Assembly (NCBI GenBank): GCA_003598085.1
Contig: QZKU01000018.1
Coordinates: forward strand, 1 to 33,671
From: Candidatus Abyssobacteria bacterium SURF_5
Lineage (GTDB): Bacteria > Abyssobacteria > SURF-5
Reading direction: 5' to 3'
Length of the DNA stretch: 33,671 bases
The notes beneath the pieces are model-generated. The model ran no database searches. It was given only the letters and a program-made list of their open reading frames with translations, and was not told the origin of the DNA. Of the stretch, positions 9,968 through 33,671 are shown piece after piece (position 1 is the stretch's first letter; every line of letters begins with the position of its first letter). A program made the position numbers and the translations under genes.

Positions 9968-12900
9968 TCAGTCGATCCCCATTCGCACGATCACCTCATG
10001 CCGGCGGCCGTCGTCTTTGAGAGGGATTCGTTTATCGAGGGCGGGCCTTCCATCCATTTCAACGTATTTTATTCCTTTGCTGATGTTTTGGGGATTTTCC
10101 ACGCGGATATGATATTCGGCGGCGCCGAAGCGATATGTGATCTTGAATTGCGGCCACGATTTCGGGATGCAGGGGTTGAATTCGAGGAATTGACCGCGCC
10201 GGCGCAGGCCAAGGATGGCCTCGAGACCGAGCCGGTACATCCATCCGCCAGAGCCGGTATACCAGGTCCAACCGCCGCGCCCGACGAATGGAGGCACGCC
10301 ATAGACATCGGCGGCGGCGACGTACGGCTCCACATGGTAGCGTTCCATTTTCTCGGGTGAATCGGCGTGATACACCGGGTTCAACAGTCGGAACAGAGAT
10401 TCGGCCCACTCGCCTTCGCCCACTTTGGTGAAGGCCCAGGCGACCCAGAGAGCGGCGTGCGTGTATTGGCCGCCGTTTTCGCGAATTCCGGGCGGGTATC
10501 CCCTGATATAGCCGGGATCGTGCGACGTCCTATGGAATGGCGGCGTAAACAGGAGCACAAGTCTTTCTTCCAATCGCACGAGGTGCTGGAGGACCGCGTT
10601 CATTGCTCTCTGGCTCCGTTGGGGATCGCCCGCTCCGGATAAAACGGCCCATGATTGGGCGATGGAGTCTATCTTGCATTCGGCGTTTCGCGAAGAACCG
10701 ACAGGCGAGCCGTCATCGTGATAGGCGCGCAGGTACCATTCGCCGTCCCACGCATGGGTCTCGATTGCTTTTTGCAGGCGCTCGATTCGGCGCGAGTAAG
10801 CGGAAGCGCTATCTTCGTCATCGAGCAGTCTGCAGATCGGAATGAATTCATTTAGCACGGCGCACAGGAACCAGCCGAGCCAGACGCTCTCGCCAATTCC
10901 TTTGGCGCCGATGTTGCTCATTCCGTCGTTCCAGTCGCCGGTTCCCATGAGCGGCAGGTCATGGGGTCCGGCGGTGATACCTTTTCTAATGGCGCGGCGG
11001 CAGTGCTCATAGAGAGAAGCGATATCGACGGTGAGCGGATACTGTCCGTAGCGCTCGGCCTCATCCGGCTTGAGGGGGTCTCCGTGCAGGAAAGGGATCT
11101 GCTCATGGAGGATGGTGACATCTCCGGTTTCCGAAACATATTTTGCCGTTACAAAGGGCAGCCACAGCAGGTCGTCCGAGGTGCGCGTACGGACTCCTTT
11201 GCCGGCCGGCGGGTGCCACCAGTGGAGCACGTCGCCCGCCTCGAACTGGTGGCGTGCGGCCCGCAGGATGTGCGCTCGCGCGATATCCGGGGCTGTATGA
11301 CAGAGGGCCACCACATCCTGCAGTTGGTCGCGAAACCCGAATGCTCCGCTCGACTGATAGAGGGCGGTTCGGCCCCAGACCCGGCACGAGAGGTTCTGGT
11401 ACAGGAGCCATCGGTTGAGCAGCAGATTCATCGCGGTGTCGGGCGTATCCACCTGCACCCGATCGAGAAGGGAGTTCCATTTCCTCCTGGTTTCCGTCAA
11501 TGCGGATTCGATGCGGGCCGGCTCCTGAAATTCCGCGATGATGTCCAGAGCCGCTTGTCGATCGGTCCCCTGTCCGAGGAGGAAATACTCGTCTACCGCT
11601 TCTTTCGGATACAGATCGATGTGCAACTGAATCGCGGCGCAGGGATCAATTCCCGCGATTACGTTTCCGGACAGGCCGACCCTTTTCAGGGCTGCCGGCA
11701 ACTTGAAGTCGCCTGCCCGCCCGAGGAACTCGGTGCGATCGGTGGTAAATCCGAATGGTTCCCTTTGTGTGGCCAGGAATGCAACGCGCTCGCCGAAATC
11801 GACGTTGTAAGGGTTGCGCAAGAGAATTGCGTGCGCCCCCTGGTCGTATTCGGGTATGACGTATTGCTGCATATTTTCCCGGCTGTTGCCGAGGACGGCA
11901 TCAACATAGTAGGTCGCGGTGATTCGCCTGGTCCGCTGGGAGAGGTTTTCGAGCCTGAGATGCACGATCTTGAGTGGCGCATTTTCGGCCGGGAACAGAG
12001 TCAATATTTGCCTGATGCCGTGGCTATTGTGTTCGAAGTTTGAATAGCCGGCGCCGTGGCGAACGAGGTAGGGAAGCGTTGTTCCGGCGGGCAGGGGAGT
12101 CGGCGACCAGACCTCGGCGGTCTCTTCATCCCGCAGGTACAGCGCCTCGCCGGGCCGGTCAAGCACCGGGTCATTGCTCCACGAGCTGAGTCGGTTCTCT
12201 CCGCTGTTGGCGGCCCACGTGCAAGCGCCTCCGGCCTCGGAAACAAAGAAACCGAATTCCGCATTGGCGACCACGTTGATCCACGGGGCCGGCGTCCACC
12301 GGTCCGGTTGAATGTAGATGATATATTCTTTTCCATCGGGACTGAAACCGCCGATTCCATTATCGAACAGAAGGTCCCGGGGTCGCTCAACGGGGGGCGC
12401 CGACAGATTGGTTTGGGCTTCCGGCGGCGGTGTTGGGACAAAAGCGGGAAGGTAAACGGGAGGCTTCTGGAGTTTTTCAAGCTGCTGCGCGAAGGAGCCC
12501 TTCTCGCCGTCCAAAATAACTCGGGCGGTCGTCTCAATCAGGCATTGCTCGTTCCCGCTCATCTGATCGGCTCGAAGCATGAAGATGCCTCCCCGCTGAT
12601 TCAACCACGTGTCGCTTTGGGACTGGGCGAGGAGTCGAACCAGATGGTTGTGCAGCTCCTGCGAGTAGCCGGTCTCGCGCATGTTGAGGATGACCAGATC
12701 GATTTTCAAACCTCTGTTTCGCCAGTAGGTGTGCGCCTTGAGCAACTCGCGCACCAGAGGGCTTTCCTCTTCTCTCCCGATGCGGACGAGCAGTAGCGGG
12801 TAGTCTCCGGAAATCGCGAAGGGCCACAGGGACGGTTGTCCTTTCGAATTGGCCGCCAGGACGGCCGGCTCGGCTCGCAAGGCGTGGTGTGGATACATCA

Positions 12901-15900
12901 ACAGGGACAGCACCTGCTGATACCGCTGCAGGTCATCCACCTGCGCCTTCAGTTGCCGCAGCTCGAGTTCGCTTCGGGCCCGGGCCGTTTCATAAGCGCG
13001 GTCGATGATATGCCATTCCTGGTACCGGTTCGCGAGGTCAAGCGCCTGGCTTCGTCTTTCGGCGATCAGCGAAATGAATGCAACCCGCAAGGATGCGTGC
13101 GGCTCGATTATGATTTCCTGGCCGAGCGCCATGATGGGATCGAGTGTTGCGCCGGTAGTATTCGACATGACAGGACCTTCGCGTCCGATGGCCGCGGGAG
13201 CGCGAAGGCTTTTGCCACGGCCGATGAAATTGCGCCGTTCCGTTTCGTGCATGCCTGCCGGTCCGATTCCCGGTTCGAGAATGAGCATATGGACGAGATG
13301 AACGGGGGATTCGCCCGGCGACCGGGTTCTGCGGTTGAACACCAGCGCGTTCAGTCCGGCTTCGAACGAGCTTTCGATAAACATCTTGTTAAAGGCCTGA
13401 TGCCTGCGATCGGTCTCCCTCGGCGCGAGCACCACTTCCGCGTAGCTGGTGATTGCGAGGCGCCGCGGCCACGCGCTCTGATTCGTGATGGTTATTCGTC
13501 TGATTTCACCGTCGTCTTCCGGCGGCACGGTCACCTCCATATGCACAATGATGTCGCCCATTTTGCAGCGGAAATCCGCCTTGTGAGGATAAAAGAAGAC
13601 TTCGCGGTCCTGCGGCAAGGTGGCGGTCGGTTGATAGCCGACGGAGGAGACTTGTTCGCTGTCCAGGTCCTGGACGTAAATCCAGGTTCCCCAGTCATCG
13701 AGTGTCGTATCGGCGCGCCAGCGGGTGACATCGATATCTTTCCATATGCTGCAGCCGCTGCCCGCGCTCGTTATCAGCACTCCATAGTTTCCATTGGACA
13801 GGTAATACGCCTGAGGAAAAGCCGAATGAACCGGCGCCTGCCATGGTGTGGCCGTTATTGGGAGATGTGCCATGAGGGCGGCCGCAACCTCTTCGATCGG
13901 GAATCTCTCGATGGGGGCTCCGTAGGGCACTTGCTCCTGGAGGAGCAATTCGCTGCTCTGAATGGCGGGGTCGGCATGAAAGCGCCTGACCATCACATCG
14001 TCGAGCAGGTGATTCGCGATCGAGAGGAGGATCATACTCTGATGGTGCGACATGAAGGAGCGCACGATTGATCGCTCCTGTCCCAGGACCAGGCGCGCCG
14101 GCGTATAATCGGCCGCCTCATAGAATCCATACAACCCGAGCATCTGCAGTTGGATGAGGCGCTCGACGTTCTGCATGACCTCGCGCGGGCGAACCGGCAA
14201 CGCCAGCAGTGAAGCGTATGGCGCGATCACCAAGTCCTCGCTCAATCCTCGCTTGAAGCCGAGTCCCGGCACGCCGAACGCCCGGTACTGGTAATTCATG
14301 TTGATGTCGAAGCGGTAATAGCCGGATTCGGAAATTCCCCACGGCACGTCTTTCTTTTTGCAGTACTCGAGCTGTCGCTTGACAGCGGCGCGGCTGCTGT
14401 GTTCGAGCAGCGAGTTGTCGTACTGGCGGAGAAGCAGGGCGGGCATCAGATATTCGAACATGGTGCCGGCCCATGACAACAAACCGCGCGTGCCGTCGAG
14501 AAGGGCGAGCGGCCGGGACAGGTGCAGCCAATGGCTCTGGGGGATGTCGCCCTTCGCGATGGCGACGATGCTGGCGATTCGCGCTTCCGACGCGAGCAAG
14601 TCGTAGCGGTTGTTGTCCAGTTGTTCGGAGTCGACGTTATAGCCTATATGGAAGATTTCACGTTTCCAGTCGAAAAGAAATCCGAATTGCATCTCCCGGA
14701 TGTTCATCTCGGCAAGCAGTATCAGATCCTGGAAATCATCAAGAAGCTGTCTCACGTTTTCCTCGGAAGCGAAGACCTGGCGCTCGAGACGATTCAGCCA
14801 CTCGTTCGCCCGTTGTTGCTCGATTTCGAGGGAGGCATCTTTTCGCACATGTTCGCGCAGGCGCTGGATAAGTTGCCGGACTTCATGCGCCACGGGCGCC
14901 ACTCGATTAAAATGGAGTGCTCCCTGCAGTTTTCCCTCGATTTCCGCAAGCAGTGCCGTTTCAGAATCACGGTAAGGCTTTAAAGATGGCGGCGGGTTGT
15001 CGAGGAGGGACAGCCACGGCGTCAGGGTATCCAGCTCGCGCCGCATGTCAAAGAGGTGATGGCGGATGCGTTCCGACCAGGTGCGCAGGCTGTTCAAGGA
15101 AGAGGCGCCCAGGGTCTGTACATGATCGCTCATCAGCGCCATCAAGGTACGCTCAAGCTCGACGCGATCGCTTTCAAGATCATTCAGTAGGGACATCCGC
15201 AAGGGCGTGTTCCGCTGGGCTCGCTCCACGCGCTCCCTCATCATTGCCAACTGCCGGAGCAGGGAATCGGTGGCTCCTTGCGGGACGTGCCGTAAGTCTT
15301 GAGCGGCCGCATCGAGCACCGCGATAGTGTCCGTCAACCCCTGCCAGCGCTGTGGCGGCATGACGGGGTAAGCAGCGTAAACCCGCAAGGTCTCCTTCAG
15401 CGCAATGAGACATGCTGCAAGGTTTCCGCTGTCCACGGTCGAAACATATCGTGGTGGCAGGGGGTTGAGCGTGCGGGTGTCGTACCAGTTGAGGAAGTGT
15501 CCGCGGTAGCGTTCGAGCAGGTGCATGCTCTCGAAAGCATTGCGCAGGCGTGAGACCATATTCAGTGCGCCGATATAGCCCAATTCGTAAGCGGCTGAGA
15601 TTGAGATGAACATTAACCCGATGTTGGTGATCGAAGTGCGGTGAGCCACCAGCCCGCGGGGCGATTCCTGGAAATGATCGGGAGGAAGCCAATGATCCTC
15701 AGGTCCAACGAACTGCTCAAAGAAAAGCCATGTCCGCCGAGCGATGAAGCGAAGCCGCCGGCGCTGGTCGTCCGGCAGCGCCTTCTTTTTCTTACGGTAC
15801 GGCCGGCTTAAAAGATATGCCACTTGCGGAGAAAGAATCCACAGGAACAGGAGGGGGGCGGCCACGGGAAAACTGCGTATGCGCGCAAATGCAAGCGCCA

Positions 15901-18508
15901 GGCCGGTGATCGCTGCGATCAGCGGCGCGAACAACATCTGCTGCCAGAACATCGGCATCATTCTCTCTTTTTTGAAGATGTGGATTGCATGCGCCGCGGT
16001 AGTCCATTGGAGGAGGCGCTTTCGGCTGATCGCGAGCCGGAAAAGCGTGGACAGGACGGCGTGAAGCATAACGAGGCTCTCGTACGGCAGGAATACCAGG
16101 ACGAGGAACCAGCGTGCGGCGCGCATAACAGCAAGGCGCATCGAGTTGGTTTTCCGCCAATCGATGGTTACGGCCGCGGCGAGAGGGACTGCCGGCGCCA
16201 GAATGAACAGGAGCGTCCAGACAAATGCGGATCCTTTAAACCAGAACCATGAGAGGACCAGAAGAGCAAACAGGCAGGGTGTTATAAGACTGCGACAGAG
16301 GTTGTCAAAAATTTTCCAGCGGCTGATCGCGGGAAGTCTTGCCACATTGACGCGTTCGTCCCGATGAAACAGCTTGCCGGAGAACAGCCACGGCAAAAGC
16401 TGCCAATCGCCGCGAGCCCACCGGTGCAGGCGGTGCATGAATGTGAGAAAATTGCGCGGGTAATCCTCGAGGAAAACGACGTCGCTCACCAAAGCCACTC
16501 GCCCGTGCAATCCCTCGATCAAGTCGTGGCTCAGGATCGCATTTTCCGGCAGCTTGCGCTCGAGCGTTTTCTCGAAAGCCGCCAGCTCATACATTCCCTT
16601 ACCGACATAGATGCCTTCGCCAAACAGGTCCTGGTATACGTCCGATACTGCACGGGTATAGAGGTCCAACCCGGTATCGCCGACGAAAATGCGGGTAAAG
16701 AGGGATTGATTTGCGCTGGTGGGCTGGACCTCGGTTCGGGGCTGGAGGATGGTATAGCCTGAGACCAAGCGATTTTCCGCGTCAAATTGGGGCTGGTTCA
16801 GGGGATGCGCGAAAACCGCAGCCAGCTTTCGGGCGCTGTCGTGGGGAAGAACCGTATCGGCATCGAGCGTTATCACGTACTTGATTTCGGGCAGAATCTG
16901 GAGGTCGCCCTGCCGGACCGTGTAGGTGGACGGTTTCCCCATCAGGAGGTAGTTGAGTTGCTGCAGGTTTCCGCGTTTGCGCTCCCAGCCCATCCATACG
17001 CCTTCAGAGGCACTGAATTCGCGCTCGCGGTTGAAGAAGGAGAACGGATTTGAACCTGCACGGGGATGGCGCGCATTCAACTCCTGGATTCCTCTGACGG
17101 CTTGTGCGACAAGGTCTTCATCGCCCGGCATGTGCTTGGCGGGGGCGTCCGTAAAGTCACCCAACAGGGCGAACGAGATATGGGGATCAGCATTTGCGAG
17201 ATAATGGCGTTCGATCTGCCGCAGCAGTGACTTGATCTCTTCGCTATCCGTCAGGAGGGTGGGGATAACCACCATGATTCGGGATTCCAAGAAGTCTTTC
17301 CGATAATCCAGTTTCGGTAAAACGCGGGGCGGGAGCGCATGCGTAAGGATCCAGTTAATGATTCCGGTAGAAATGCGCAACAGCGGAATCAAGAACAGGA
17401 GGCATATCACGGAGATTTGTGCCGCGGGCGCATTTAGCGAGGCGGCGTACAGGATGACAACCGTCGCGATTGCGGCGGTGGTGGACCAGATGGCGGACAG
17501 GTAAAGCGGGGACGGATGCTCAAGCAGCCAGCGCCCGAGACGGGAAAAGAGAGCGGGCCGGTACTGCAGGCGATGCTCCAGCGCCGTCCTTCCGGCGTCC
17601 ACAACATAGTAGCCGACATGGCTCGTTTGAGGCGAGCCCGCCCTTCTCGAGTCTTCCAAGGCGAGAGCGACTGCCTCTTTTGCGACGTCGACTTCACTTG
17701 CACCGGCTGCTCGCGCCAGATCTTCGATCTTTTTGCGGTACGCGTCCCGCGTCTCGAAATCCATTGCGGGGTAAATGGCGGTCGGATCATTTCTGAGCGC
17801 CCGTTCGACCAAGCTGACGCGCTCGAAGAAATCCTTCCAATCCTCATCGGCGACCATGCGCAAACTGAGGATGGCGTTGGCGACAATTTGCTCATCGGAG
17901 ATCTCGTCCGGCAGCTTGAGGACGGCTGAGGGGGTCTGCTCCGGTTTGAGGGGAAGCCGAATCAGGCGGGAAAGCGCGCGCGAGACATATTCGACGACAA
18001 TGACCCGCAGCATGGCCGGCAACGCCCAGACTTCACCGATCGAAAGAGATGCGATTCCCTGATACGCTTGCACGAAGCGCACGGTAGTCTCCATGTGCAA
18101 ATGCCCCGCGCACGCGAGGAATATTTCACGCGCGACGGCATACACGCGCGGCATCAACTCCGGGATGGAATCCTTCAGTTTCGGCAGCCGTCGGTAAAAA
18201 CCCTCGGGCATGTCCTCCCGGATCTCGCGCACCGCCTGCTGAAGTATGTGGAAATTATCGAGCACCCATTCAGCCGCGTAGGATTGACCCGGCTCCTTGA
18301 CTACGGGTGTCGCGAAATGCCGGTACGCGCGGTTCAGCAGGTCCTCCTGCGCTTCGAGCCGGTCCAGCATGGCGCGCGCTTTGCCCGCTTTATGCAGGAG
18401 AACGTGTTGGGTGGCAACGAGCCGGGCGTGCTGTTCAAGCGAGGGTGAGACGGGCCGGCGCTCGTCGGAGGAAACGCGCTCCGCTATTTCCTGAACCTTC
18501 TGCGCCAT
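9968..18508 (-). CDS. ndvB: Cyclic beta-1,2-glucan synthase (NdvB/Cgs type)
   Basis: A 2846-residue inner-membrane enzyme making cyclic beta-1,2-glucan from UDP-glucose for the periplasm. Length and order match Brucella/Rhizobium Cgs. After an N-terminal NdvB-type region (LDNFHILQQAVREI, YRRLPKL) come two membrane segments (about 335-390), the GT84 glycosyltransferase with DAD (549-551) and RWARGDWQ (about 696-703), four or five further membrane segments (740-900), a GH189/glycoamylase-like transglycosylase region (about 920-1530), then two GH94-type modules; the last keeps GTGDWNDG with the catalytic Asp at 2528. Start chosen at the ATG at 18508: it follows the upstream TGA by one base and has AAGGG seven bases before it; a GTG at 18535 is the alternative. 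Such glucans serve osmotic adaptation and host interaction. Only the synthase is here; no NdvA exporter is seen. Confidence 0.93.
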   Translation of the reverse strand: MAQKVQEIAERVSSDERRPVSPSLEQHARLVATQHVLLHKAGKARAMLDRLEAQEDLLNRAYRHFATPVVKEPGQSYAAEWVLDNFHILQQAVREIREDMPEGFYRRLPKLKDSIPELMPRVYAVAREIFLACAGHLHMETTVRFVQAYQGIASLSIGEVWALPAMLRVIVVEYVSRALSRLIRLPLKPEQTPSAVLKLPDEISDEQIVANAILSLRMVADEDWKDFFERVSLVERALRNDPTAIYPAMDFETRDAYRKKIEDLARAAGASEVDVAKEAVALALEDSRRAGSPQTSHVGYYVVDAGRTALEHRLQYRPALFSRLGRWLLEHPSPLYLSAIWSTTAAIATVVILYAASLNAPAAQISVICLLFLIPLLRISTGIINWILTHALPPRVLPKLDYRKDFLESRIMVVIPTLLTDSEEIKSLLRQIERHYLANADPHISFALLGDFTDAPAKHMPGDEDLVAQAVRGIQELNARHPRAGSNPFSFFNREREFSASEGVWMGWERKRGNLQQLNYLLMGKPSTYTVRQGDLQILPEIKYVITLDADTVLPHDSARKLAAVFAHPLNQPQFDAENRLVSGYTILQPRTEVQPTSANQSLFTRIFVGDTGLDLYTRAVSDVYQDLFGEGIYVGKGMYELAAFEKTLERKLPENAILSHDLIEGLHGRVALVSDVVFLEDYPRNFLTFMHRLHRWARGDWQLLPWLFSGKLFHRDERVNVARLPAISRWKIFDNLCRSLITPCLFALLVLSWFWFKGSAFVWTLLFILAPAVPLAAAVTIDWRKTNSMRLAVMRAARWFLVLVFLPYESLVMLHAVLSTLFRLAISRKRLLQWTTAAHAIHIFKKERMMPMFWQQMLFAPLIAAITGLALAFARIRSFPVAAPLLFLWILSPQVAYLLSRPYRKKKKALPDDQRRRLRFIARRTWLFFEQFVGPEDHWLPPDHFQESPRGLVAHRTSITNIGLMFISISAAYELGYIGALNMVSRLRNAFESMHLLERYRGHFLNWYDTRTLNPLPPRYVSTVDSGNLAACLIALKETLRVYAAYPVMPPQRWQGLTDTIAVLDAAAQDLRHVPQGATDSLLRQLAMMRERVERAQRNTPLRMSLLNDLESDRVELERTLMALMSDHVQTLGASSLNSLRTWSERIRHHLFDMRRELDTLTPWLSLLDNPPPSLKPYRDSETALLAEIEGKLQGALHFNRVAPVAHEVRQLIQRLREHVRKDASLEIEQQRANEWLNRLERQVFASEENVRQLLDDFQDLILLAEMNIREMQFGFLFDWKREIFHIGYNVDSEQLDNNRYDLLASEARIASIVAIAKGDIPQSHWLHLSRPLALLDGTRGLLSWAGTMFEYLMPALLLRQYDNSLLEHSSRAAVKRQLEYCKKKDVPWGISESGYYRFDINMNYQYRAFGVPGLGFKRGLSEDLVIAPYASLLALPVRPREVMQNVERLIQLQMLGLYGFYEAADYTPARLVLGQERSIVRSFMSHHQSMILLSIANHLLDDVMVRRFHADPAIQSSELLLQEQVPYGAPIERFPIEEVAAALMAHLPITATPWQAPVHSAFPQAYYLSNGNYGVLITSAGSGCSIWKDIDVTRWRADTTLDDWGTWIYVQDLDSEQVSSVGYQPTATLPQDREVFFYPHKADFRCKMGDIIVHMEVTVPPEDDGEIRRITITNQSAWPRRLAITSYAEVVLAPRETDRRHQAFNKMFIESSFEAGLNALVFNRRTRSPGESPVHLVHMLILEPGIGPAGMHETERRNFIGRGKSLRAPAAIGREGPVMSNTTGATLDPIMALGQEIIIEPHASLRVAFISLIAERRSQALDLANRYQEWHIIDRAYETARARSELELRQLKAQVDDLQRYQQVLSLLMYPHHALRAEPAVLAANSKGQPSLWPFAISGDYPLLLVRIGREEESPLVRELLKAHTYWRNRGLKIDLVILNMRETGYSQELHNHLVRLLAQSQSDTWLNQRGGIFMLRADQMSGNEQCLIETTARVILDGEKGSFAQQLEKLQKPPVYLPAFVPTPPPEAQTNLSAPPVERPRDLLFDNGIGGFSPDGKEYIIYIQPDRWTPAPWINVVANAEFGFFVSEAGGACTWAANSGENRLSSWSNDPVLDRPGEALYLRDEETAEVWSPTPLPAGTTLPYLVRHGAGYSNFEHNSHGIRQILTLFPAENAPLKIVHLRLENLSQRTRRITATYYVDAVLGNSRENMQQYVIPEYDQGAHAILLRNPYNVDFGERVAFLATQREPFGFTTDRTEFLGRAGDFKLPAALKRVGLSGNVIAGIDPCAAIQLHIDLYPKEAVDEYFLLGQGTDRQAALDIIAEFQEPARIESALTETRRKWNSLLDRVQVDTPDTAMNLLLNRWLLYQNLSCRVWGRTALYQSSGAFGFRDQLQDVVALCHTAPDIARAHILRAARHQFEAGDVLHWWHPPAGKGVRTRTSDDLLWLPFVTAKYVSETGDVTILHEQIPFLHGDPLKPDEAERYGQYPLTVDIASLYEHCRRAIRKGITAGPHDLPLMGTGDWNDGMSNIGAKGIGESVWLGWFLCAVLNEFIPICRLLDDEDSASAYSRRIERLQKAIETHAWDGEWYLRAYHDDGSPVGSSRNAECKIDSIAQSWAVLSGAGDPQRSQRAMNAVLQHLVRLEERLVLLFTPPFHRTSHDPGYIRGYPPGIRENGGQYTHAALWVAWAFTKVGEGEWAESLFRLLNPVYHADSPEKMERYHVEPYVAAADVYGVPPFVGRGGWTWYTGSGGWMYRLGLEAILGLRRRGQFLEFNPCIPKSWPQFKITYRFGAAEYHIRVENPQNISKGIKYVEMDGRPALDKRIPLKDDGRRHEVIVRMGID

Positions 18509-18509
18509 T

Positions 18510-19460
18510 TCAATGCCCTTTTTTTTGGACGGCACTCAGTTCGGGCTCCGAAAACTCGACTTCCTCGGGCAGCAGGTCCTGCACAACCAGCAGCGGAACA
18601 GTTCCGAAGAGAATAAAGTTGCTCGCAACACTGCCGTACGGCCATTTTGTGCCGCCGGAAAACCCGTGAGCGCTCAGGATAACGAGGTCGATTTTCTCAT
18701 CTCTGACCAACTCGTGCAGCCGGCCGGAAACATTTTCATCCACAAAAAGGCGGATGTGAACATCTCCGGGCATCCGGGAGCGCAGCGTCTCAAAATATTT
18801 TCGCGCTTCACGTTGGTTGCGCTCGATCAGCCGATTGGCGAGTTCCAGGTCATCTTCGGTCGGCAGAGTGCGGCAAGGCATTTCCGGCCTTCGCACCACG
18901 TGCGCGATCAGGATGCGCGAATTGCAAGCACGCGCAAGAGCGGTTGCGGGCGCGAGCGCGCATTCGGCTCGTTTGGAGCAATCCAGCGGGACCATCAGGC
19001 GCTCGAACCCTGCACCTTCTTGGGGGGCGGGAAGGTACGCGCGCACGATCAGTGTCGAGACGCGGGAACGCAAGATGATTTTGCTGATGACGCTGCCGGA
19101 GTTCCATTCGCTCAATCCGCTCCGCCCATGGCTGCTGATTATGGTGAGGTCGACTTTGTGCGACTGAATGTAGTCCATGATACGCTGCGCGGCGGATCCT
19201 TCGAACATTGCGAAATCGGCCTGCAGTCCCGCCTGTTGAAAGGCGGTTGCGAGGCCCTCCAGATATAATCTGGCTTCGCTCTTGCACATTTCCCACTCGA
19301 GCGGGTCGACAGGTTGAAGACATGTCCCCCACTGTTCTTCAAGAACCCTCAGAAAAGTCACTCGCGCCCCGAATGCCTTCGCCAAGGCGGTTGCCTGCAT
19401 CAAGACGCGTTCAGCCAGAGAGGAACCATCGAGCGGGACAAGAATATGATGAAACATCAT
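18510..19460 (-). CDS. Tandem-domain universal stress protein (UspA family)
   Basis: A 316-residue cytosolic protein with two Usp domains. Domain 1 (about 3-150) begins FHHILVPLDGSSLAERVL and carries SSHGRSGLSEWNSGS; domain 2 (about 160-300) begins FERLMVPLDCSKRAE and carries SAHGFSGGTKWPYGS. Both keep the HG-9x-GS nucleotide-binding pattern, so ATP binding is plausible; the first G of the full pattern is Ser or Ala. The start is at the double ATG 19460/19457 preceded by GGGGAGGG; the open frame continues upstream to 19652 but that part overlaps the preceding gene and is not Usp-like. Its TGA is one base from the glucan synthase ATG, so the two are translationally coupled. Usp proteins usually respond to stasis and stress; here a link to envelope glucan synthesis is inferred. 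Confidence 0.9.
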   Translation of the reverse strand: MMFHHILVPLDGSSLAERVLMQATALAKAFGARVTFLRVLEEQWGTCLQPVDPLEWEMCKSEARLYLEGLATAFQQAGLQADFAMFEGSAAQRIMDYIQSHKVDLTIISSHGRSGLSEWNSGSVISKIILRSRVSTLIVRAYLPAPQEGAGFERLMVPLDCSKRAECALAPATALARACNSRILIAHVVRRPEMPCRTLPTEDDLELANRLIERNQREARKYFETLRSRMPGDVHIRLFVDENVSGRLHELVRDEKIDLVILSAHGFSGGTKWPYGSVASNFILFGTVPLLVVQDLLPEEVEFSEPELSAVQKKGH

Positions 19461-25924: not shown

Positions 25925-26218
25925 TCAGGCGATTTTTCGCCTTTCGGTTTCCTCCTTTACCTGTTTTTCGTAGTCGATCAACAGTTGCAGCCAGTAGGTT
26001 TCATAGGTGAAACGTTCAAGCTCGGTCTCTATCTTGCCGGGAGCGCGCGATGAGACTATCGATTCCGTGCGTTTTCTCAGGCATGTGGGAAGACTGAATT
26101 CCAGCAATTTATGCGTATGCTCTACTTCCTTCTTCAGTTGATCATCGGACAGGGAAGACAGAGTTCTCCGCTTTCTCTCAATGTCTCCGGTCAGCCGTTT
26201 TCTATCGTATTTTGCCAT
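25925..26218 (-). CDS. Small charged protein of unknown function
   Basis: A 97-residue protein that I do not recognise. It has no signal peptide or membrane segment, is very rich in Lys, Arg and Glu, and should be mostly helical (about 5-45 and 63-95), possibly a coiled coil: IERKRRTLSSLSDDQLKKEVEH, then IETELERFTYETYWLQLLIDYEKQVKEETERR. A single Cys is at 46. The start is at the ATG at 26218; the frame continues upstream through the terminator at 26303-26335, which argues against a longer protein. GAGGAG and GGGGA words lie in the 15 bases before the ATG. It is downstream of the superoxide dismutase terminator, so it probably has its own promoter. Confidence 0.72.
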   Translation of the reverse strand: MAKYDRKRLTGDIERKRRTLSSLSDDQLKKEVEHTHKLLEFSLPTCLRKRTESIVSSRAPGKIETELERFTYETYWLQLLIDYEKQVKEETERRKIA

Positions 26219-26302
26219 TATTCCCCACTCCTCTTTTTTCTTAAGTATGCATGTCAAGTTTGCTTTTAGAAAATGGCATGTACGGGACAACTTATTGAGG
26301 AC

Positions 26303-26335
26303 AAAAAAGGCGCGAACCCATGAAGAATTCGCGCC
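26303..26335 (-). terminator. Intrinsic terminator of the superoxide dismutase gene
   Basis: On the minus strand GGCGCGAA (complement of 26328-26335) pairs with TTCGCGCC (complement of 26309-26316) over 8 bp around an 11-base loop, followed by six T (complement of 26303-26308). It is placed 35 bases past the dismutase stop. The stem resembles the dispersed palindrome at 2938-2955. Confidence 0.88.
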
Positions 26336-26369
26336 CTGATCCCAAAGCATCCGGTCGTAGGAGCAGAGT

Positions 26370-27077
26370 CTATTTCAGCCGTTTTTCGACCGCCTCCCAA
26401 TTTACGTTCTTGAAGAAAGCGTCGATGTAACCCGCTTTTTTCGTGCCGTAGTCGATCATGTAGGCGTGTTCGAAGACGTCCATGATCAGGATCGGTATGC
26501 AGCCTGCCGGATGCCCGCAATCATGTTCATTAATCCAGAAATTGATGAGTCGGCCGTTGGTATTATCCTGGTACAGGACGGCCCAGCCGATGCCGCGCAT
26601 GCCGCCGACCTCGCGGAACTCCTTTTCCCAGGCATCATAGCTGCCGAAATCCTCAGCCAGCTTTTTGGCAAGCTTGCCGTCCTTTTTCAGAGCGGCCTTT
26701 CCGCCGAGATTACCGAAATATAATTCATGCAGGCGGATACCGTTAAATTCCCATCCGAGTCTTCGTTTGACCTCGCCGAAACCATACGTGTTGCCTTCCT
26801 TGAGCAACTGCTGGGACAACTCGAGGTTCTTGTTCGTGTTGGTGACGTAACCGTTGTACAGGGTGAAATGGTTGTTCAGCAGGGTGTCACTGAAGCCTTG
26901 CATTCCGAGCAGACTCTTAAAATCCTTGGGTTCGTAAGCCATTTTGACCTCCTCTTTCTGTTGCGGTCCTGATTCTGCGTGAACTGCCAGTGGTTGTGCC
27001 GCCAATAGAATGGCTCCCGTGGCGGAAGCCTTTAAAAAGAATCTTCTGGTAACAAAAGATTCCGTTTTCTTTTTCAT
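26370..27077 (-). CDS. Fe/Mn superoxide dismutase with Tat signal
   Basis: A 235-residue superoxide dismutase of the Fe/Mn family that converts superoxide to oxygen and hydrogen peroxide. The four metal ligands are visible: His70 (LLNNHFTLYNGYV), His117 (GIRLHELYFGNL), Asp200 and His204 (DVFEHAYMIDYG). The extra N-terminal 45 residues carry TRRFFLK (10-16), a twin-arginine motif, then a hydrophobic stretch to AVHAES, so it should be exported folded through Tat to the periplasm; most bacterial members of this family are cytosolic. Which metal is used cannot be told. Start at 27077 has GGGAG about six bases upstream; ATG at 27107 would only add ten residues. Own promoter and terminator: monocistronic. 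Confidence 0.93.
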   Translation of the reverse strand: MKKKTESFVTRRFFLKASATGAILLAAQPLAVHAESGPQQKEEVKMAYEPKDFKSLLGMQGFSDTLLNNHFTLYNGYVTNTNKNLELSQQLLKEGNTYGFGEVKRRLGWEFNGIRLHELYFGNLGGKAALKKDGKLAKKLAEDFGSYDAWEKEFREVGGMRGIGWAVLYQDNTNGRLINFWINEHDCGHPAGCIPILIMDVFEHAYMIDYGTKKAGYIDAFFKNVNWEAVEKRLK

Positions 27078-27181
27078 TGCCGCTCCCTGGAGATTTGTTG
27101 CGGCCATGATTGAGGGTGTTGCATGGTTCGTTACCCGCGGGCGCTCACCAACCTCGGATCAGTCGTTCGAACAAAAAATCA

Positions 27182-27261: not shown

Positions 27262-28284
27262 TCATTTTTTCTGGGGAAATTCTTCAATGACGGCCACGGC
27301 GTTTTCAACCGGGACTTCCTGCATGATCGGTTTGGCCGGGGCAAGGATGTATCCGCCGCCGGTGCCCATTTCGGAGGCGAGCCGGCGTATCTCGCGGCGG
27401 ACATCGCGGGGGGAACCGAACGGAAGGAGTTGCTGGGTGCCAAGGCCGCCCCACAGGCGCAGGTTCTTGCCGTATCTGCGTTTGATTTCATAGACGTCCA
27501 TCGCCTCGGGCTGGAGCGATTCGAGGGCATCGAGTCCCATTTCGATCATGTCGGGAATTATCTCGAACACATTGCCGCAGCAATGCGTGATCGCGAGCTT
27601 GCCGAACAGGTGGGCGCGCTCATAGAGTTTTTGGGTGCGGTCTTTGAAGAGCTTTCTCCACCGCTCCGGCCCAAAGATGACGCCGCGCTGGTCGCCCCAA
27701 TCGTCTCCGAAGAAGACGGCGTCGATGGGGAACTGACAGAGACGGTCAACCATTGCGAGGTGCATCTCGAGGATGCGGTCGAGCAATTCCTCGTAAAAGG
27801 ACGTGTTGAGGACAGTGTCGATCAGCGCATTTTCGAAGCCGCGGAGGGTCCAGGAGCGCTCCCACAAGCCGAAGTTAATTTGGCCAAGGATGAACTTGTC
27901 CGAATTTTCGCGAATGAGAAGCTCGGCGCTGCCCTCGTCCAGCGACTCGAGGACGGTCCTCTGGACTGCATCAAAGTCGTATCCGGCGAGGCCCGGTTCC
28001 TTGAGAGGAGGACTGACCAGGTGAAGCGGCCGCGCGGAGAAGTCCCAGACACAGCCATATTCATCCTTTACATGGCGGTCATCGAGCAGTTCCGGCAGGC
28101 CGAAAACCGGATAGCCGACGAACATGATGTGCTGCTCGATCCTGTTTTCCCAATCGCGGCTGCCATAGTATTCGGTCAGTTTATCATCGACTTCCGGCTC
28201 AAAGATAACGTCATACGGCACGATGTCGGTTTCCTCGAAATTCAGGGCCGCCCGGACGCGTTCTTTTGGAGTGGGCGCTTTCAT
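27262..28284 (-). CDS. UroD-like protein (methyltransferase/decarboxylase superfamily)
   Basis: A 340-residue protein of the URO-D/MtaA superfamily (TIM barrel). GDDWGDQRGVIFGPERWRKL (193-212) and ITHCCGNVFEIIPDMIEMGLDAL (232-254) are typical of the many UroD-like proteins outside haem synthesis. His234 and Cys236 fit the H-x-C half of the zinc site of MtaA-type corrinoid methyltransferases, but the third ligand Cys is replaced in LAPAKPI (314-320). The N-terminal substrate-binding Arg motif of true HemE is not seen. The ATG overlaps the arabinofuranosidase stop as ATGA, so it is translated as the last gene of the rhamnose operon; the longer frame to 28455 is inside that gene. AAAGGA precedes the ATG. 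I infer a role in sugar catabolism, perhaps O-demethylation, not haem synthesis. Confidence 0.85.
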   Translation of the reverse strand: MKAPTPKERVRAALNFEETDIVPYDVIFEPEVDDKLTEYYGSRDWENRIEQHIMFVGYPVFGLPELLDDRHVKDEYGCVWDFSARPLHLVSPPLKEPGLAGYDFDAVQRTVLESLDEGSAELLIRENSDKFILGQINFGLWERSWTLRGFENALIDTVLNTSFYEELLDRILEMHLAMVDRLCQFPIDAVFFGDDWGDQRGVIFGPERWRKLFKDRTQKLYERAHLFGKLAITHCCGNVFEIIPDMIEMGLDALESLQPEAMDVYEIKRRYGKNLRLWGGLGTQQLLPFGSPRDVRREIRRLASEMGTGGGYILAPAKPIMQEVPVENAVAVIEEFPQKK

Positions 28285-29768
28285 GATTTTCCTTTCGAAT
28301 CCAATTTCAAGAGGGTTACAGAGTGAGCGGGAAACTCGTAACGAAATTCCGCCGCCGCTGAATTGAATCTCTTTTCGACTGTTTTCACGTTGTCCGGTTC
28401 GGAAAAGGAATTTTTTGCATCCACCTGCGGGCCATTGATCTCGAAGACGCGGCACACTTTTTTGGGATAAAAAGAGTCGAGAGAAATCTGCGCTACGATC
28501 GGGTTCTCCCTGTGCCGGTTTACTACGGCCAAGCTCAGTTCGGTCGCAGGCTCATTCACGGTGGCGGAAACATCGATATAGGGGACAGTTTCCACCGGAG
28601 AATCATGCCCGCCGCCGCTCCATTCGTGGAGAACCACGGTTTGATAGGCGAGGGAGTCAACAAACGGATCGAGAGCGATGGGCTGGCAATGGTCGCGGTA
28701 CAACTTGAAGGAATGGTAGATGGTCTGCAGAAACAGTCCTTCCGGGCCGGCAAATATTGGAGCAATAACGTTTACCATCTGAGACAGATTCGAGAGTGTG
28801 ACGGTCGTGCAGTTGCGGTGCATGACATTGAGGAAGCCGGCGACGGCAAGCGCATCGGACAGGTCGTACTGCTCCTCCATGCAGCCGCCGAAGGCCTTAT
28901 ACCACACGTTCCATTCGTCCATGGCGATTTCCGGTCGGGCCGCCTTCTTCCCATGCATGGCGATGGTGATCGTCGCGTTGAATATATCTATCAGCCTCTG
29001 CGCGCGGACTGGCCCGGCGACATTGGTGTAATAATCGGAGTTCCCGGTGTAGATATGCAACGAAAGGTAATCTATAAAGCCGGCGAGCTTATCGATCGTT
29101 TCCAGATTCCATGACGGTCCCTCCACCTGCTCCAGAAAACCGCATCCGACCAGTCGGATGGATGGGTCCGCCCATCGCATCATTTTCGCCGCTTCGCGGG
29201 CGGTTTTGGCGTAATCCTGAGCGTTCTTCTCGCCGATCTGCCAGAAACCTCCCATCTCGTTTCCGAGGCCCCAGAACTTGACGTTGTGCGGCTGATTGTA
29301 GCCGTTTGCCCTGCGCATGTTGGCGTAATGGGAGTCATCCGTTCCGTTGCAGTATTCGACCCATGCCGCGGCTTCTTCCGGCGTTCCGGTTCCGAGGTTG
29401 ACACACAAGAAAGGCTCCGTGTTTATCGCTCTACAATATTCGATGAACTCGTCGGTTCCAAAGCGGTTTGGTTCCACGGTATTCCATGCGAACTCCAGTT
29501 TCCGGGGGCGCTTGTCTTTGGGCCCGACTCCGTCTTGCCAGTGATAGCCGGAAACGAAGTTTCCACCGGGATACCTCAGATTCGGAAGCCGCAACCCCTT
29601 CATGATTTCCAGGACGTCCTTCCGGAAACCGCGTTCATCGGAGAGAGGAGAGCCTTCTTCGTAAATTCCGCCGTAAATGCAACGTCCCAGGTGCTCGATG
29701 AAACCGCCGTAAATGTTCGGATTGATGGGGCCGATTTTGCGTTCGACATCGATCTTTATTTTTGCCAT
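28281..29768 (-). CDS. Intracellular alpha-L-arabinofuranosidase (GH51)
   Basis: A 495-residue family GH51 enzyme releasing terminal alpha-L-arabinofuranose from arabino-oligosaccharides. The acid/base Glu171 is in GLGNEMGG and the nucleophile Glu285 in IAMDEWNVWY; INPNIYGGFIEHLGRCIYGGIYEE (15-38) and NLRYPGGNFVSGYHW (63-77) are typical of the family, and the C-terminal 380-495 is the usual beta domain. There is no signal peptide, so it acts on imported oligomers. Its ATG at 29768 has GGGAGAG just upstream and overlaps the rhaA end by 13 bases; its stop overlaps the UroD-like start. Arabinose side chains occur on rhamnogalacturonan I, which would explain its place in a rhamnose operon. No arabinose kinase or isomerase is in the window. 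Confidence 0.94.
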   Translation of the reverse strand: MAKIKIDVERKIGPINPNIYGGFIEHLGRCIYGGIYEEGSPLSDERGFRKDVLEIMKGLRLPNLRYPGGNFVSGYHWQDGVGPKDKRPRKLEFAWNTVEPNRFGTDEFIEYCRAINTEPFLCVNLGTGTPEEAAAWVEYCNGTDDSHYANMRRANGYNQPHNVKFWGLGNEMGGFWQIGEKNAQDYAKTAREAAKMMRWADPSIRLVGCGFLEQVEGPSWNLETIDKLAGFIDYLSLHIYTGNSDYYTNVAGPVRAQRLIDIFNATITIAMHGKKAARPEIAMDEWNVWYKAFGGCMEEQYDLSDALAVAGFLNVMHRNCTTVTLSNLSQMVNVIAPIFAGPEGLFLQTIYHSFKLYRDHCQPIALDPFVDSLAYQTVVLHEWSGGGHDSPVETVPYIDVSATVNEPATELSLAVVNRHRENPIVAQISLDSFYPKKVCRVFEINGPQVDAKNSFSEPDNVKTVEKRFNSAAAEFRYEFPAHSVTLLKLDSKGKS

Positions 29769-31099
29769 TTCTCTCCCTCTTGCAGATGGTTTCCTGTATC
29801 CTGCGGCTTTGTGATCCCTCGCGTCGACTGCGAACGCTTGCGCAGCGTCTCGACTTCGTAACGCCGGATCTCATTCAGCCATGAGTCGCCAGCCGGCAGG
29901 CCTTTCCTCAGACAATGATAATCCCACACCGCGCCAAACGGCATGCTTTTCAATTCCTCCATGAGCGCCAGCCGCGAGAAGTAGTCGCCTGCTTCCTCGA
30001 AGTTCCTGAGCGTCTCGGCTGGCTCCAGGAGCGCGATCAACAAGGCTTTCAAGACGGCCCTGGCGCCAATGACCCATGCGCCCACCCTGTTCATGCTTCC
30101 ATCGAAGAAGTCAAGCGCAAGATGAACGCGCGTAATAAAATCGTTCCTGACGATCTCCCCGCAGACCTCTCGCATATCGTCGCTGAGAATGGCCACGTGA
30201 TCGCTGTCCCATCGGACGCCGCGGCTCATGTGAAGGAGTAGTTCGTCCGAGAACAGCAGGATTGATGAAAGCTTGTCGGCGACTGATTCAGTCGGATGGA
30301 AATGACCCAGATCGAGGCAGAGCATTTTGCCTTTCTTAAGCGCATAGCCCATGTAGAACTCGTGCGAGCCTGTCACAAACGATTCGCTCCCGATTCCAAA
30401 AAGCTTGCTTTCGACGGAGTCCTTCATTTCAGACACAGGATATTCAGCGGCGTAGATCTCATCGAGCGATTCTTTCAGCAGAGCCCGATGCGTCAGCCGG
30501 TCCGCCGGAATATCTTTCGAGCCGTCGGGAATCCACAGGTTATGGATGCATGGGGAGCCGAGCTCACGCCCGATGAACGCGCTGATTGTCCTGCATCTGC
30601 TGACGTGCTCGATCCAGAACTGACGAATATCCTTATTCTTGCTGCTCAGCGTGAAACCGGATTCGGCTTTAGGGTGGGAAAAGCACGTGCAATTGAAGTC
30701 GATTTTGAGATGCTGAGTTTTCGCCCATTCGATCCAGCCTTCAAAGTGATGGGGCTCTATTTCGTTTCTCTCGATGCGTCTGCCGCCGAATTCACCGTAC
30801 ATCGCATGGAGGTTCAGCCGATGGAGGCCGGGGATGAGGGAGTAGGCTTTTTCAAGGTCGCTTCTGAGTTCCGCCGCGGTTCTCGCTTTGCCTGGATAGT
30901 TGCCTGTTACCTGTATCCCTCCGCCCTCCAGTCCAGCGCCCGGCCTCTCGAAACCTCCAACGTCGTCCCCCTGCCAGCAATGGAGCGACAAGGAGATTGC
31001 ATCCAGCGCCGCCAACGCTGTCTCGGTATCGACATCGAGCCGTTCGTACTTTTCCTTCGCGATTTGATACGCCTTCTCCATATTGGCGGTATTTTTCAT
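29756..31099 (-). CDS. rhaA: L-rhamnose isomerase
   Basis: A 447-residue enzyme interconverting L-rhamnose and L-rhamnulose, the first step of rhamnose catabolism. It aligns along its length with E. coli RhaA: SLHCWQGDDVGGFE (38-51), GGIQVTGNYPGKAR (60-73), DFNCTCFSHP (134-143), VESKLFGIGSESF (229-241), CLDLGHFHPTE (261-271) and LLLHMSRGVRWDSDHV (287-302). The metal ligands Glu230, Asp263, His290 and the Asp pair at 298 and 300 are kept. Length is slightly above the usual 420. The start overlaps the rhaB stop as ATGA; AAGGGCGG lies upstream. It belongs to the rhaDBA-GH51-UroD operon. Confidence 0.96.
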   Translation of the reverse strand: MKNTANMEKAYQIAKEKYERLDVDTETALAALDAISLSLHCWQGDDVGGFERPGAGLEGGGIQVTGNYPGKARTAAELRSDLEKAYSLIPGLHRLNLHAMYGEFGGRRIERNEIEPHHFEGWIEWAKTQHLKIDFNCTCFSHPKAESGFTLSSKNKDIRQFWIEHVSRCRTISAFIGRELGSPCIHNLWIPDGSKDIPADRLTHRALLKESLDEIYAAEYPVSEMKDSVESKLFGIGSESFVTGSHEFYMGYALKKGKMLCLDLGHFHPTESVADKLSSILLFSDELLLHMSRGVRWDSDHVAILSDDMREVCGEIVRNDFITRVHLALDFFDGSMNRVGAWVIGARAVLKALLIALLEPAETLRNFEEAGDYFSRLALMEELKSMPFGAVWDYHCLRKGLPAGDSWLNEIRRYEVETLRKRSQSTRGITKPQDTGNHLQEGEKWQK

Positions 31100-32613
31100 G
31101 GTATCCGCCCTTCCGAGGCATTGCGGCTTGGTGCGCTTATAATTTCTCTGAATGTATCATAAGCCGTCTCCCATTCCTTCACATGCTCGGGTTCGTACTT
31201 CTCAAGAATGAATGAATGGGAGATGACTTCGCGCATTCCGGCGAGCGATGTAACGCATCCCGCCGCAAGCGCCTGCGCCATGATGTTTCCGACCGCAGCC
31301 GCCTCGACCGGGCCAGCCATAACTGGAAGCCCGGTCGCATTTGCGGTGAATTGACAGAGAAGGCGGTTGTGTGCTCCTCCGCCAATGACGTGGATGCTGT
31401 TGATCGGCTTTGGAGACAATCGCCGTAGTTGATCGAGAACGAGGCGATATTTCAACGCCATGCTCTCGAGGATGCAGCGGACCAGCGCGCCGGGGGAATC
31501 GGGAACGGACTGCTTCGTGCTTTTGAGGGAGCGTCCTATTGCCGCCGGCATGTCGGGCGGATTGAGGAATTCGCTCCAATCGGGATCGATGAAAGCTGCG
31601 AAAGGTACGGCGCCCGTTGCGGCGACAAGGAGATCATCGTATTCGCAGCGGCGCTTCTCCGCCCAAACTCTGCGGCATTCCTCGAGCAGCCAAAGCCCCG
31701 CGATGTTCTTTAGAAAGCGAATGGTGTTTTCCATGCCGCCTTCATTGGTGAAGTTCAGGCGCAATGACTGGTCGGTGATGATGGGCTTGTCGATCTCGAT
31801 TCCCATCAGCGACCACGTGCCGGAGCTGATATAGGCCCAGTCTTTGCCGGCAGCGGGAACGGCCGCAACGGCCGAAGCGGTATCATGCGTGGCGACTGCG
31901 ATCACCGGAATCGGCGATAATCCGGTCTGCTTGCTGACATCCGGCATGATCTCGCCGAAGACCGCGCCCGGCTGCTCGATTTTCTGCATCAGGCTTCCAG
32001 GGAGCCCAAGCGCCGACAGCAGCTCTTCTTCCCAGTCTTCCTTTATGGGATTATAAAGCTGCGACGTTGTGGCAAATGAGAACTCGGTCTTTTTTACCCC
32101 GGTCAAAAGGTAGGTCAACAGGTCGGGTATGAAGAGCAGGTCGCGAGCGACACTGAGCAGGGGCGATTTGTCGCGGACCATCGCTTCCAGTTGGAACAGG
32201 GAGTTCAGTTGAAGAAACTGGATGCCGGTCAATCCGTAGACACGCTCACGAGGGATTTTCTGGAAGAACGATTCCATTGCGCCGTCGGTGCGGCTATCGC
32301 GGTAGCCGTACGGCAGGCCGAGGATGCTGCCGTCGTTTGCCAGGAAGCCAAAATCAACACCCCATGTGTCGATGCCGACGCTCAGCGGAATGGTTTCCGG
32401 CTCCTCCGCGCAGAGCTTCAGCCCGTTCTTTACTTGCTCGAAGAGGTTGAAGATGTTCCAGTGCAAATGGCCGCACACCTGAATCATGCCATTGGGGAAG
32501 CGGCATATTTCGCGAGTCCGAAGCCGATCGTCCGCGATTTCTCCGAGCACACCGCGCCCGCTTGAAGCGCCAAGATCAAACGCCAGGAACCGGGACGGGT
32601 GCAAGGGGATCAT
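31096..32613 (-). CDS. rhaB: L-rhamnulokinase
   Basis: A 505-residue FGGY-family sugar kinase that phosphorylates L-rhamnulose to L-rhamnulose 1-phosphate with ATP. The N-terminal phosphate loop AFDLGASSGRGVLG (11-24), the substrate region GIDTWGVDFGFL (80-91), the general base Asp244 in VATHDTASAVAA, and the nucleotide-site loop HVIGGGAHNRLLCQ are all present. Length is close to E. coli RhaB. The ATG at 32613 overlaps the rhaD stop as ATGA, but GGAGG is only one base from it; a TTG three codons later (32604) would have better spacing, so the true start is open by three residues. The C-terminus overlaps the rhaA start. Confidence 0.95.
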   Translation of the reverse strand: MIPLHPSRFLAFDLGASSGRGVLGEIADDRLRTREICRFPNGMIQVCGHLHWNIFNLFEQVKNGLKLCAEEPETIPLSVGIDTWGVDFGFLANDGSILGLPYGYRDSRTDGAMESFFQKIPRERVYGLTGIQFLQLNSLFQLEAMVRDKSPLLSVARDLLFIPDLLTYLLTGVKKTEFSFATTSQLYNPIKEDWEEELLSALGLPGSLMQKIEQPGAVFGEIMPDVSKQTGLSPIPVIAVATHDTASAVAAVPAAGKDWAYISSGTWSLMGIEIDKPIITDQSLRLNFTNEGGMENTIRFLKNIAGLWLLEECRRVWAEKRRCEYDDLLVAATGAVPFAAFIDPDWSEFLNPPDMPAAIGRSLKSTKQSVPDSPGALVRCILESMALKYRLVLDQLRRLSPKPINSIHVIGGGAHNRLLCQFTANATGLPVMAGPVEAAAVGNIMAQALAAGCVTSLAGMREVISHSFILEKYEPEHVKEWETAYDTFREIISAPSRNASEGRIP

Positions 32614-33446
32614 TCCTCCAGCTTGAACGTTCGCGCAATCTCATCCAACTGCTCTTTTGTCAGACCTGTTGGCGTGTGGCCGGCGCTGCGGCACATGAGC
32701 ACGATCGAGGCGGCCTTATTCGCGATATCGATCAGGTCGAAGGCAACCATCGGCTCCTTTGCCCTCGAGACGGAGCCATGGATTTCCCATAATACCACCG
32801 AGTAGCCGCGCCGAAAGCATTCCAGGGTGGCTTGCGCGAGTTTTTCGGAGCCGGGAATCACATAGGGAACGAATCCCACGCCTTTCGGCAAATTGTATTT
32901 TACTTCCGGATGAGTACTCCACAGCGCCTGGTTCAGGGCCGGTTCATCGCGATATTCCGGCAGATGTGTGAGCGCTATTAATTCGACGGGATGCGTGTGC
33001 AGTACGACCTTTTCTTGCGCGTTGGTCTGGCGCATGTGTTCGTGCAGCCGCAAGTGAGCCGGGAACTCCGAGGTCGGCCTGAAATCGGGGGCGTCCTCGC
33101 CGCCCCAGATGATGCGATATCCGGCGCCGTCATCAGATATTCGCAAGATACAGGCATTGGCCGCGGGCGCCTTGGCCATATCCCTGAAGCGTTTGCCTGA
33201 GCCGGTCACCAGGAAATAGCGGCCCGCGAGAGCGGGATAGGTAAAATCAAGCTTGCGGAGGCGGTCTGAAGATTCCGGGAACATACCCGGCGGAATATGT
33301 TCGGTCGCATCGATCGACAGGTTTCCTGCGTTGCGCTCGGCCCATCCTTTTTCCCATACATAGCCGCTGACCTCGAGCATTTCCTCCAGTACAGGTTCCA
33401 ATCCTGGACACCGAGAAAGCAAATCTTCGATTTTTCTTTTATTCAT
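32610..33446 (-). CDS. rhaD: L-rhamnulose-1-phosphate aldolase
   Basis: A 278-residue class II zinc aldolase that splits L-rhamnulose 1-phosphate into dihydroxyacetone phosphate and L-lactaldehyde. Zinc ligands are His150 and His152 (VVLHTHPVELIALTH) and His223 (VVLWEIHGSV); the catalytic Glu is Glu127 (TSEFPAHLRLHEHM). WAERNAGNLSID (36-46) and YFLVTGSGKRFRDM (77-90) match the E. coli enzyme. First gene of the operon. Start chosen at 33446 (MNKRKIE) with GGGGGCG about five bases upstream; 33461 would add five residues. No lactaldehyde oxidoreductase or dehydrogenase is seen nearby, so lactaldehyde handling is encoded elsewhere. Confidence 0.95.
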   Translation of the reverse strand: MNKRKIEDLLSRCPGLEPVLEEMLEVSGYVWEKGWAERNAGNLSIDATEHIPPGMFPESSDRLRKLDFTYPALAGRYFLVTGSGKRFRDMAKAPAANACILRISDDGAGYRIIWGGEDAPDFRPTSEFPAHLRLHEHMRQTNAQEKVVLHTHPVELIALTHLPEYRDEPALNQALWSTHPEVKYNLPKGVGFVPYVIPGSEKLAQATLECFRRGYSVVLWEIHGSVSRAKEPMVAFDLIDIANKAASIVLMCRSAGHTPTGLTKEQLDEIARTFKLEE

Positions 33447-33671
33447 GCGACGCCCCCACAACTCCTCGCAGCAAGTCCCAGAATATCCTTAATGCTAGCC
33501 ATATTCGCATCACGCGACACCTCGTTCGGATGCAGTTGTCAATAAATTATGCTCTGCCGGGGGCGCCTTAGTTTAGAATTTATCCGTAAATAATAATGCA
33601 TTGTCGAAAGGTTATTAGGGCGCATGCGATCTCCAGTAGGCCTTCGTAGCTATCAGCTCGTTTCTCATAGC
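33447..33671 (-). promoter_or_regulatory. Upstream region of the rhamnose operon
   Basis: 225 bases before rhaD with no gene. Two inverted repeats may be operators: GAATAT (33481-33486) with ATATTC (33501-33506), 35-60 bases before the start codon, and ATTTA/TAAAT around TCCG at 33578-33591. A consensus TTGACA lies at the complement of 33537-33542, but I see no good -10 at 16-18 bases. No regulator gene (rhaR, rhaS, LacI or GntR type) is inside the window. Confidence 0.35.

Follow-up and report, generated by a model that had tools for sequence, protein, structure and literature searches.

Methylated sugars occur widely in the polysaccharides of plants and algae. The demethylation route found for them in the literature is oxidative: a P450 enzyme of porphyran-degrading marine bacteria demethylates 6-O-methyl-D-galactose, a polysaccharide-derived sugar, ahead of catabolism and gives formaldehyde (PMC10033563). 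Corrinoid-dependent methyl transfer is carried out by several members of the UroD superfamily. The soluble CoM methyltransferases MtaA, MtbA and MtsA (PDB 4ay7) are TIM barrels with an H-x-C-G motif that function in methanogenesis. S-type corrinoid methyltransferases of the superfamily have a His-Cys-Cys metal site, whereas one or both cysteines are replaced in O-type members (PMC10418091). The characterised O-demethylases OdmB, VdmB, MtvB and MtoB use methoxylated aromatics, the cavity of the haloalkane enzyme CdmB is largely aromatic, and zinc has been reported absent from CdmB and from a Moorella O-demethylase (PMC13222342). In the part of the literature covered, we found neither a corrinoid sugar demethylase nor a UroD protein associated with rhamnose, methylated sugars or arabinofuranosidase in bacterial sugar clusters.

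The DNA analysed here, the window, is 33,671 nt long and makes up an entire contig (QZKU01000018.1, C18; positions 1-33,671, forward strand) of assembly GCA_003598085.1, the 5.1-Mb draft genome of Candidatus Abyssobacteria bacterium SURF_5 (Bacteria; Abyssobacteria; SURF-5; G000), which looks anaerobic. Two relatives in the same family, each from another genus, were used for comparison (G001 and G002, the latter 91% complete). A UroD-like protein of 340 residues encoded in the window (27262..28284, minus strand) is, with a probability of about one half, the substrate-specific methyltransferase I in an O-demethylase that depends on a corrinoid protein and takes O-methyl sugars or small methylated glycosides as substrates. 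It belongs to the same superfamily as OdmB, VdmB, MtvB, MtoB and CdmB and would share their role alongside a corrinoid protein and a second methyltransferase; however, its sequence similarity to them is weak (CdmB is matched by profile alone, E 0.0012), and their known substrates are aromatics or haloalkanes rather than sugars. The proposed system resembles the P450 demethylase in preparing a sugar for catabolism, but would be independent of oxygen.

The uroD-like gene is the last of five minus-strand genes in the order rhaD-rhaB-rhaA-GH51-uroD-like. The first-pass annotation had described this run as overlapping throughout, and every junction indeed overlaps, by 4 nt at rhaD/rhaB and rhaB/rhaA, 13 nt at rhaA/GH51 and 4 nt at GH51/uroD-like, with Pfam or NCBIfam support for each name. 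RhaD is a rhamnulose-1-phosphate aldolase (32610..33443; NF002963, 272.6 bits against a cut-off of 170), RhaB a rhamnulokinase (31096..32613; TIGR02627, 9e-145, under its cut-off, with an FGGY match) and RhaA an L-rhamnose isomerase (29756..31099; PF06134, 3e-190, equivalog cut-off passed). The GH51 gene (28281..29768) encodes an alpha-L-arabinofuranosidase of the ArfA type (alpha-L-AF_C, PF06964, 3.9e-33; ArfA, 1.3e-130, under the equivalog cut-off) and is the sole PF06964 gene of the source genome. The uroD-like ATG (28284-28282) shares the sequence ATGA with the GH51 TGA (28283-28281), as the annotation had stated for its range 27262-29768, which spans both genes together. Upstream of rhaD, the contig stops inside the end of a probable IS5-type transposase (33552..33671, minus strand; translation judged by eye), which makes rhaD the operon's probable first gene. 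Predicted promoters and terminators were no more frequent in the operon than in shuffled sequence. Elsewhere in the window, a 2855-residue protein resembles cyclic beta-glucan synthase by eye (9968-18535, minus strand).

The UroD-like protein matches the Pfam URO-D family well above the gathering score (PF01208, 63.8 bits against 23.9; 1.8e-17), and its AlphaFold2 model is a confident UroD/MtaA-type barrel (pLDDT 96). MtaA (4ay7) is its best solved relative both by sequence and by Foldseek. The predicted fold by itself leaves the function undecided, because VIA-align gives a Z score of ~27 to UROD and to MtaA alike. The Pfam match and the common fold are what would recommend uroporphyrinogen decarboxylase (HemE) and a role in haem synthesis, an identity that can be given almost no credence. 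The RQAGR motif, found at position 27 of E. coli HemE, is absent; fold alignments give 11-17% identity to solved UroD structures; the protein is not among the listed matches of the HemE model TIGR01464 (cut-off 302.95 bits) and is well separated from E. coli HemE in the tree, and its gene context differs as well. The earlier statement that it is not HemE thus holds, also by the tree comparison that had been suggested. The HemE cut-off is reached by no protein in the source genome or its two relatives, each of which has 13-15 weaker matches to the model; the three organisms may lack haem synthesis or achieve it in a different way. With a recognisable HemE in none of the three, ‘uroporphyrinogen decarboxylase’ annotations mislead in genomes like these. 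Membership of the MtaA/CmuA family was likewise rejected: TIGR01463 scores 50.7 bits against a cut-off of 235.4 and NF004889 56.2 against 244, and the zinc ligands His-Cys-Cys are replaced by His234, Cys236 and Lys318. The H-x-C-G motif is common to MtaA and the UroD-like protein; Lys318 in place of the last Cys, the low model score and the sugar-catabolic context set the latter apart.

The H-x-C motif reads H234-C235-C236-G and the lysine of LAPAKPI is K318, both as first annotated. His234 (codon 27583..27585, minus strand), a putative metal or substrate ligand, follows the predicted barrel strand 230-234 and is His in 62 of 62 homologs. Four further positions, D195, Q199, Q258 and Q284, are invariant across the same 62 proteins; residue 236 varies between C and D, and residue 318 among H, K, Q and I, with C in none of them. 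In the AlphaFold2 model, D194, D195, H234, C236, Q258, Q284 and K318, most of them invariant, lie just past the C-terminal ends of the strands on the active-site face. As modelled, this polar conserved site suits a sugar, in contrast to the mainly aromatic cavity of CdmB.

Phylogenetic analysis groups the UroD-like protein with orthologs of both sister genera, at 71, 64 and 62% identity (support 99). This group falls within a clade of 20 members (support 91, rising to 99 if one further row is included); the remaining members share 41-47% identity with the UroD-like protein and come from Lentisphaerota, Chloroflexota, Spirochaetota, Armatimonadota, Planctomycetota, Latescibacterota and Bacillota metagenome-assembled genomes. 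A plasmid search returned just four weak matches (25-29% identity). H234, C236 and K318 are present in all 20 clade members, Lys318 (codon 27331..27333, minus strand) standing where MtaA-type enzymes have their last Cys. By its sequence, the protein belongs to an uncharacterised clade defined by an H-C-K site, as opposed to the H-C-C site of S-type methyltransferases. The departure from H-C-C, by which O-demethylases are told apart (PMC10418091), is thus found in every member of the clade, and by this rule the replaced second Cys favours an O-type over an S-type methyltransferase. The departure is one that the protein shares with known O-type members (PMC10418091, PMC13222342). Lys is an unusual metal ligand, which counts against a corrinoid O-demethylase, and zinc may therefore not bind. 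The lost ligand is nevertheless no argument against methyl transfer, since CdmB and the Moorella enzyme were reported without zinc. Lys318 and the several invariant acids and glutamines could also do non-metal chemistry, in keeping with a UroD member that isomerises, decarboxylates or eliminates from a sugar or sugar acid and has an incidental link to corrinoids. We regard such an enzyme as improbable, MtaA being the closest solved structure by sequence; the gene neighbourhoods described below also bear on it.

The window contains no corrinoid gene, which weighs against an O-demethylase acting on sugars, but the orthologous locus of one relative does. On contig C14 of G002, a corrinoid protein (CP; PF02607 and PF02310) and a pterin-binding CH3-H4folate methyltransferase (MTII) are divergent to a run of sugar genes, TetR-GH51-PfkB-GH2-ortholog-UroD2-Gfo/Idh-Gfo/Idh-UroD-related gene, in which the ortholog is 71% and GH51 80% identical to the window's proteins, and the final UroD-related protein is without a Pfam match. 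In the source genome the same kinds of part are found in trans on contig C134, in the order RraA(-like)-GH2-GH4-Gfo-Gfo-UroD-UroD-NH-CP-MTII, where NH is a nucleoside-hydrolase-family gene and MTII a PF00809 methyltransferase; this block is divergent to TetR-UroD-GH29-UroD. The C134 MTII passes the cut-off of NF005719, the NCBIfam model for methyl-H4folate:corrinoid/iron-sulfur protein methyltransferase. In the other relative (G001), the same Gfo/Idh pair (60-67%) immediately precedes rhaD-rhaB-rhaA and a gene resembling fucose isomerase (fucI). The uroD-like, GH51, rhaDBA, Gfo/Idh and CP/MTII genes therefore behave as one module reshuffled in three genera; they likely work together, as their pairwise linkage in differing orders would otherwise be hard to explain. 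On the strength of this context, which supports a corrinoid partnership, the UroD-like protein is probably a corrinoid methyltransferase. Clustering with CP and MTII in G002 speaks equally against the non-methyltransferase alternative.

The link to the rhamnose and arabinose genes held for one part of the operon. Each of the three genomes has a single GH51 gene, which clusters with the UroD-like ortholog in two of them (G000 and G002), so that adjacency is conserved. Conversely, the adjacency of rhaDBA to uroD was found in the source genome alone, with no other instance around matches in 98 genomes or at 80 homolog loci, and rhaA has no match in G002, in its 91% complete genome; both facts detract from a sugar O-demethylase tied to rhamnose genes. 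To the question raised earlier, whether the neighbourhood is unique to this genome, the survey thus answers yes for rhaDBA-uroD among the genomes searched, and no for GH51-uroD. The restricted gene order and the IS-like remnant at the contig edge would fit a passenger gene with no sugar role that a rearrangement close to an IS element had put behind GH51. That the single-copy GH51 clusters with the ortholog in both G000 and G002, and that GH51 and AraB neighbours occur independently in Chloroflexota, makes a passenger very unlikely.

Loci of more distant homologs add both support and caution. In the Chloroflexota, one locus combines a CUT2-type ABC transporter and three UroD genes with GH51 (L073), and its sister has the same transporter and three UroD genes with the ribulokinase gene araB (L078); these are independent ties of UroD genes to L-arabinose release and use. 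At L054, a clade member of about 45% identity, the stop codon of CP and the likely GTG start codon of UroD overlap (GTGA). Among more distant homologs, CP lies just upstream at L131 and downstream at L116, and a RACo-type activase gene adjoins L129. The CP genes abutting UroD genes at L054 and L131 are a further point against the non-methyltransferase alternative, whereas the scarcity of such genes elsewhere favours it: a CP gene is within about 5 kb at just 4 of the 80 homolog loci, which also tells against a corrinoid sugar O-demethylase. Under the methyltransferase assignment, the corrinoid protein would mostly have to come from another locus; corrinoid-protein domains are encoded in all four genomes checked behind loci without a nearby corrinoid gene. 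The neighbours across the wider clade vary, with sugar genes common and rha or GH51 rare, a variability that again weakens the case for the proposed sugar O-demethylase. Added sampling of one phylum (that of G046) gave further homologs in varied contexts, in which no new GH51 or corrinoid link was noticed; a PfkB-like sugar kinase gene adjoins one of them by eye (L195). Two to four UroD-like genes stand in tandem at L061, L073, L078 and L095, several with CUT2-type sugar ABC transporters, and such paralogs may have differing substrates or steps.

The following route would account for these associations. GH51 and partner glycosidases would free a methylated sugar, and the UroD-like barrel would move its O-methyl group to the Co(I) centre of a corrinoid protein encoded in trans on C134. 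The PF00809 methyltransferase encoded beside that protein would hand the methyl group to tetrahydrofolate, while a RACo-type activase would hold the cobalt reduced. The CH3-H4folate formed could be used by CODH/ACS; the methyl groups have a destination, as contig C67 of the source genome carries genes for CODH/ACS subunits, the methyltransferase and RACo. The demethylated sugar would then be open to isomerase-kinase-aldolase catabolism (RhaABD). Demethylation would have a clear reason to sit in the operon, because an O-methyl group at C2 would block an aldose-ketose isomerase. The first-pass annotation had suggested a corrinoid methyltransferase acting on sugar O-methyl groups; the clustering of the ortholog with GH51, CP and MTII now strengthens that suggestion, in which the chemistry, its direction and the substrate are what we infer from such context.

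Should the protein be a corrinoid methyltransferase, a sugar or glycoside is the likely substrate. Rhamnose specifically as the sugar is doubtful overall; O-methyl pentoses and O-methyl fucose are equally good candidates, given the GH51, AraB, GH29 and fucose-isomerase neighbours. The methyl group could instead be borne by an aromatic moiety attached to the sugars that GH51 and RhaABD process, as in feruloyl-arabinose or the glycosides of methoxyflavonoids and lignans. Methoxyaromatics are often attached to arabinofuranosyl and rhamnosyl groups in plants, and the corrinoid context would serve an aromatic substrate as well as a sugar. The characterised O-demethylases of the superfamily also use methoxylated aromatics. 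We nonetheless consider this unlikely: no feruloyl esterase or aromatic-ring gene was recognised in the annotated clusters, where the neighbours are glycosidases, sugar kinases, Gfo/Idh proteins and sugar ABC transporters, and the conserved site residues are polar.

The components of a sugar O-demethylase such as we propose are of known kinds; the novelty would lie in the class of substrate and in the clade with its H-C-K site. A broader and more tentative proposal, to which we give somewhat less than even odds, is that the source organism has a complete O2-independent, B12-dependent demethylation pathway for O-methyl 6-deoxy sugars and pentoses from plant or algal polysaccharides, that the H-C-K clade consists of such demethylases in several phyla and that the methyl groups enter the Wood-Ljungdahl pathway. 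Should the sugar O-demethylase reading hold, anaerobes would gain a route to the use of methylated sugars, polysaccharide breakdown would be tied to C1 metabolism, and some of the many unassigned UroD-like genes, which number 20 in the source genome alone, would be accounted for.

Other corrinoid gene sets occur in these genomes. A second set of the source genome (C70, L038) encodes a corrinoid protein, two H-C-C UroD proteins, a third protein and a RACo-type activase. It is Mlp-like, resembling the type 1 mlp clusters, in which several UroD-like proteins accompany a corrinoid protein and an activase; Mlp proteins are of the S/Se type with H-C-C (PMC10418091), whereas the window's UroD-like protein falls in a separate clade. 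In G001, counterparts of the C134 corrinoid protein and methyltransferase (60-70% identity; C72, L164 3103-7042) adjoin a TetR-like gene and, by eye, an apparent MttB-family gene, so partner pairs of the C134 type may serve different methyltransferases. Finally, a superoxide dismutase gene and a small ORF of the window (25925-27107) recur as a pair in G001 (L165 5587-6870), near another set of corrinoid protein, UroD and methyltransferase genes.
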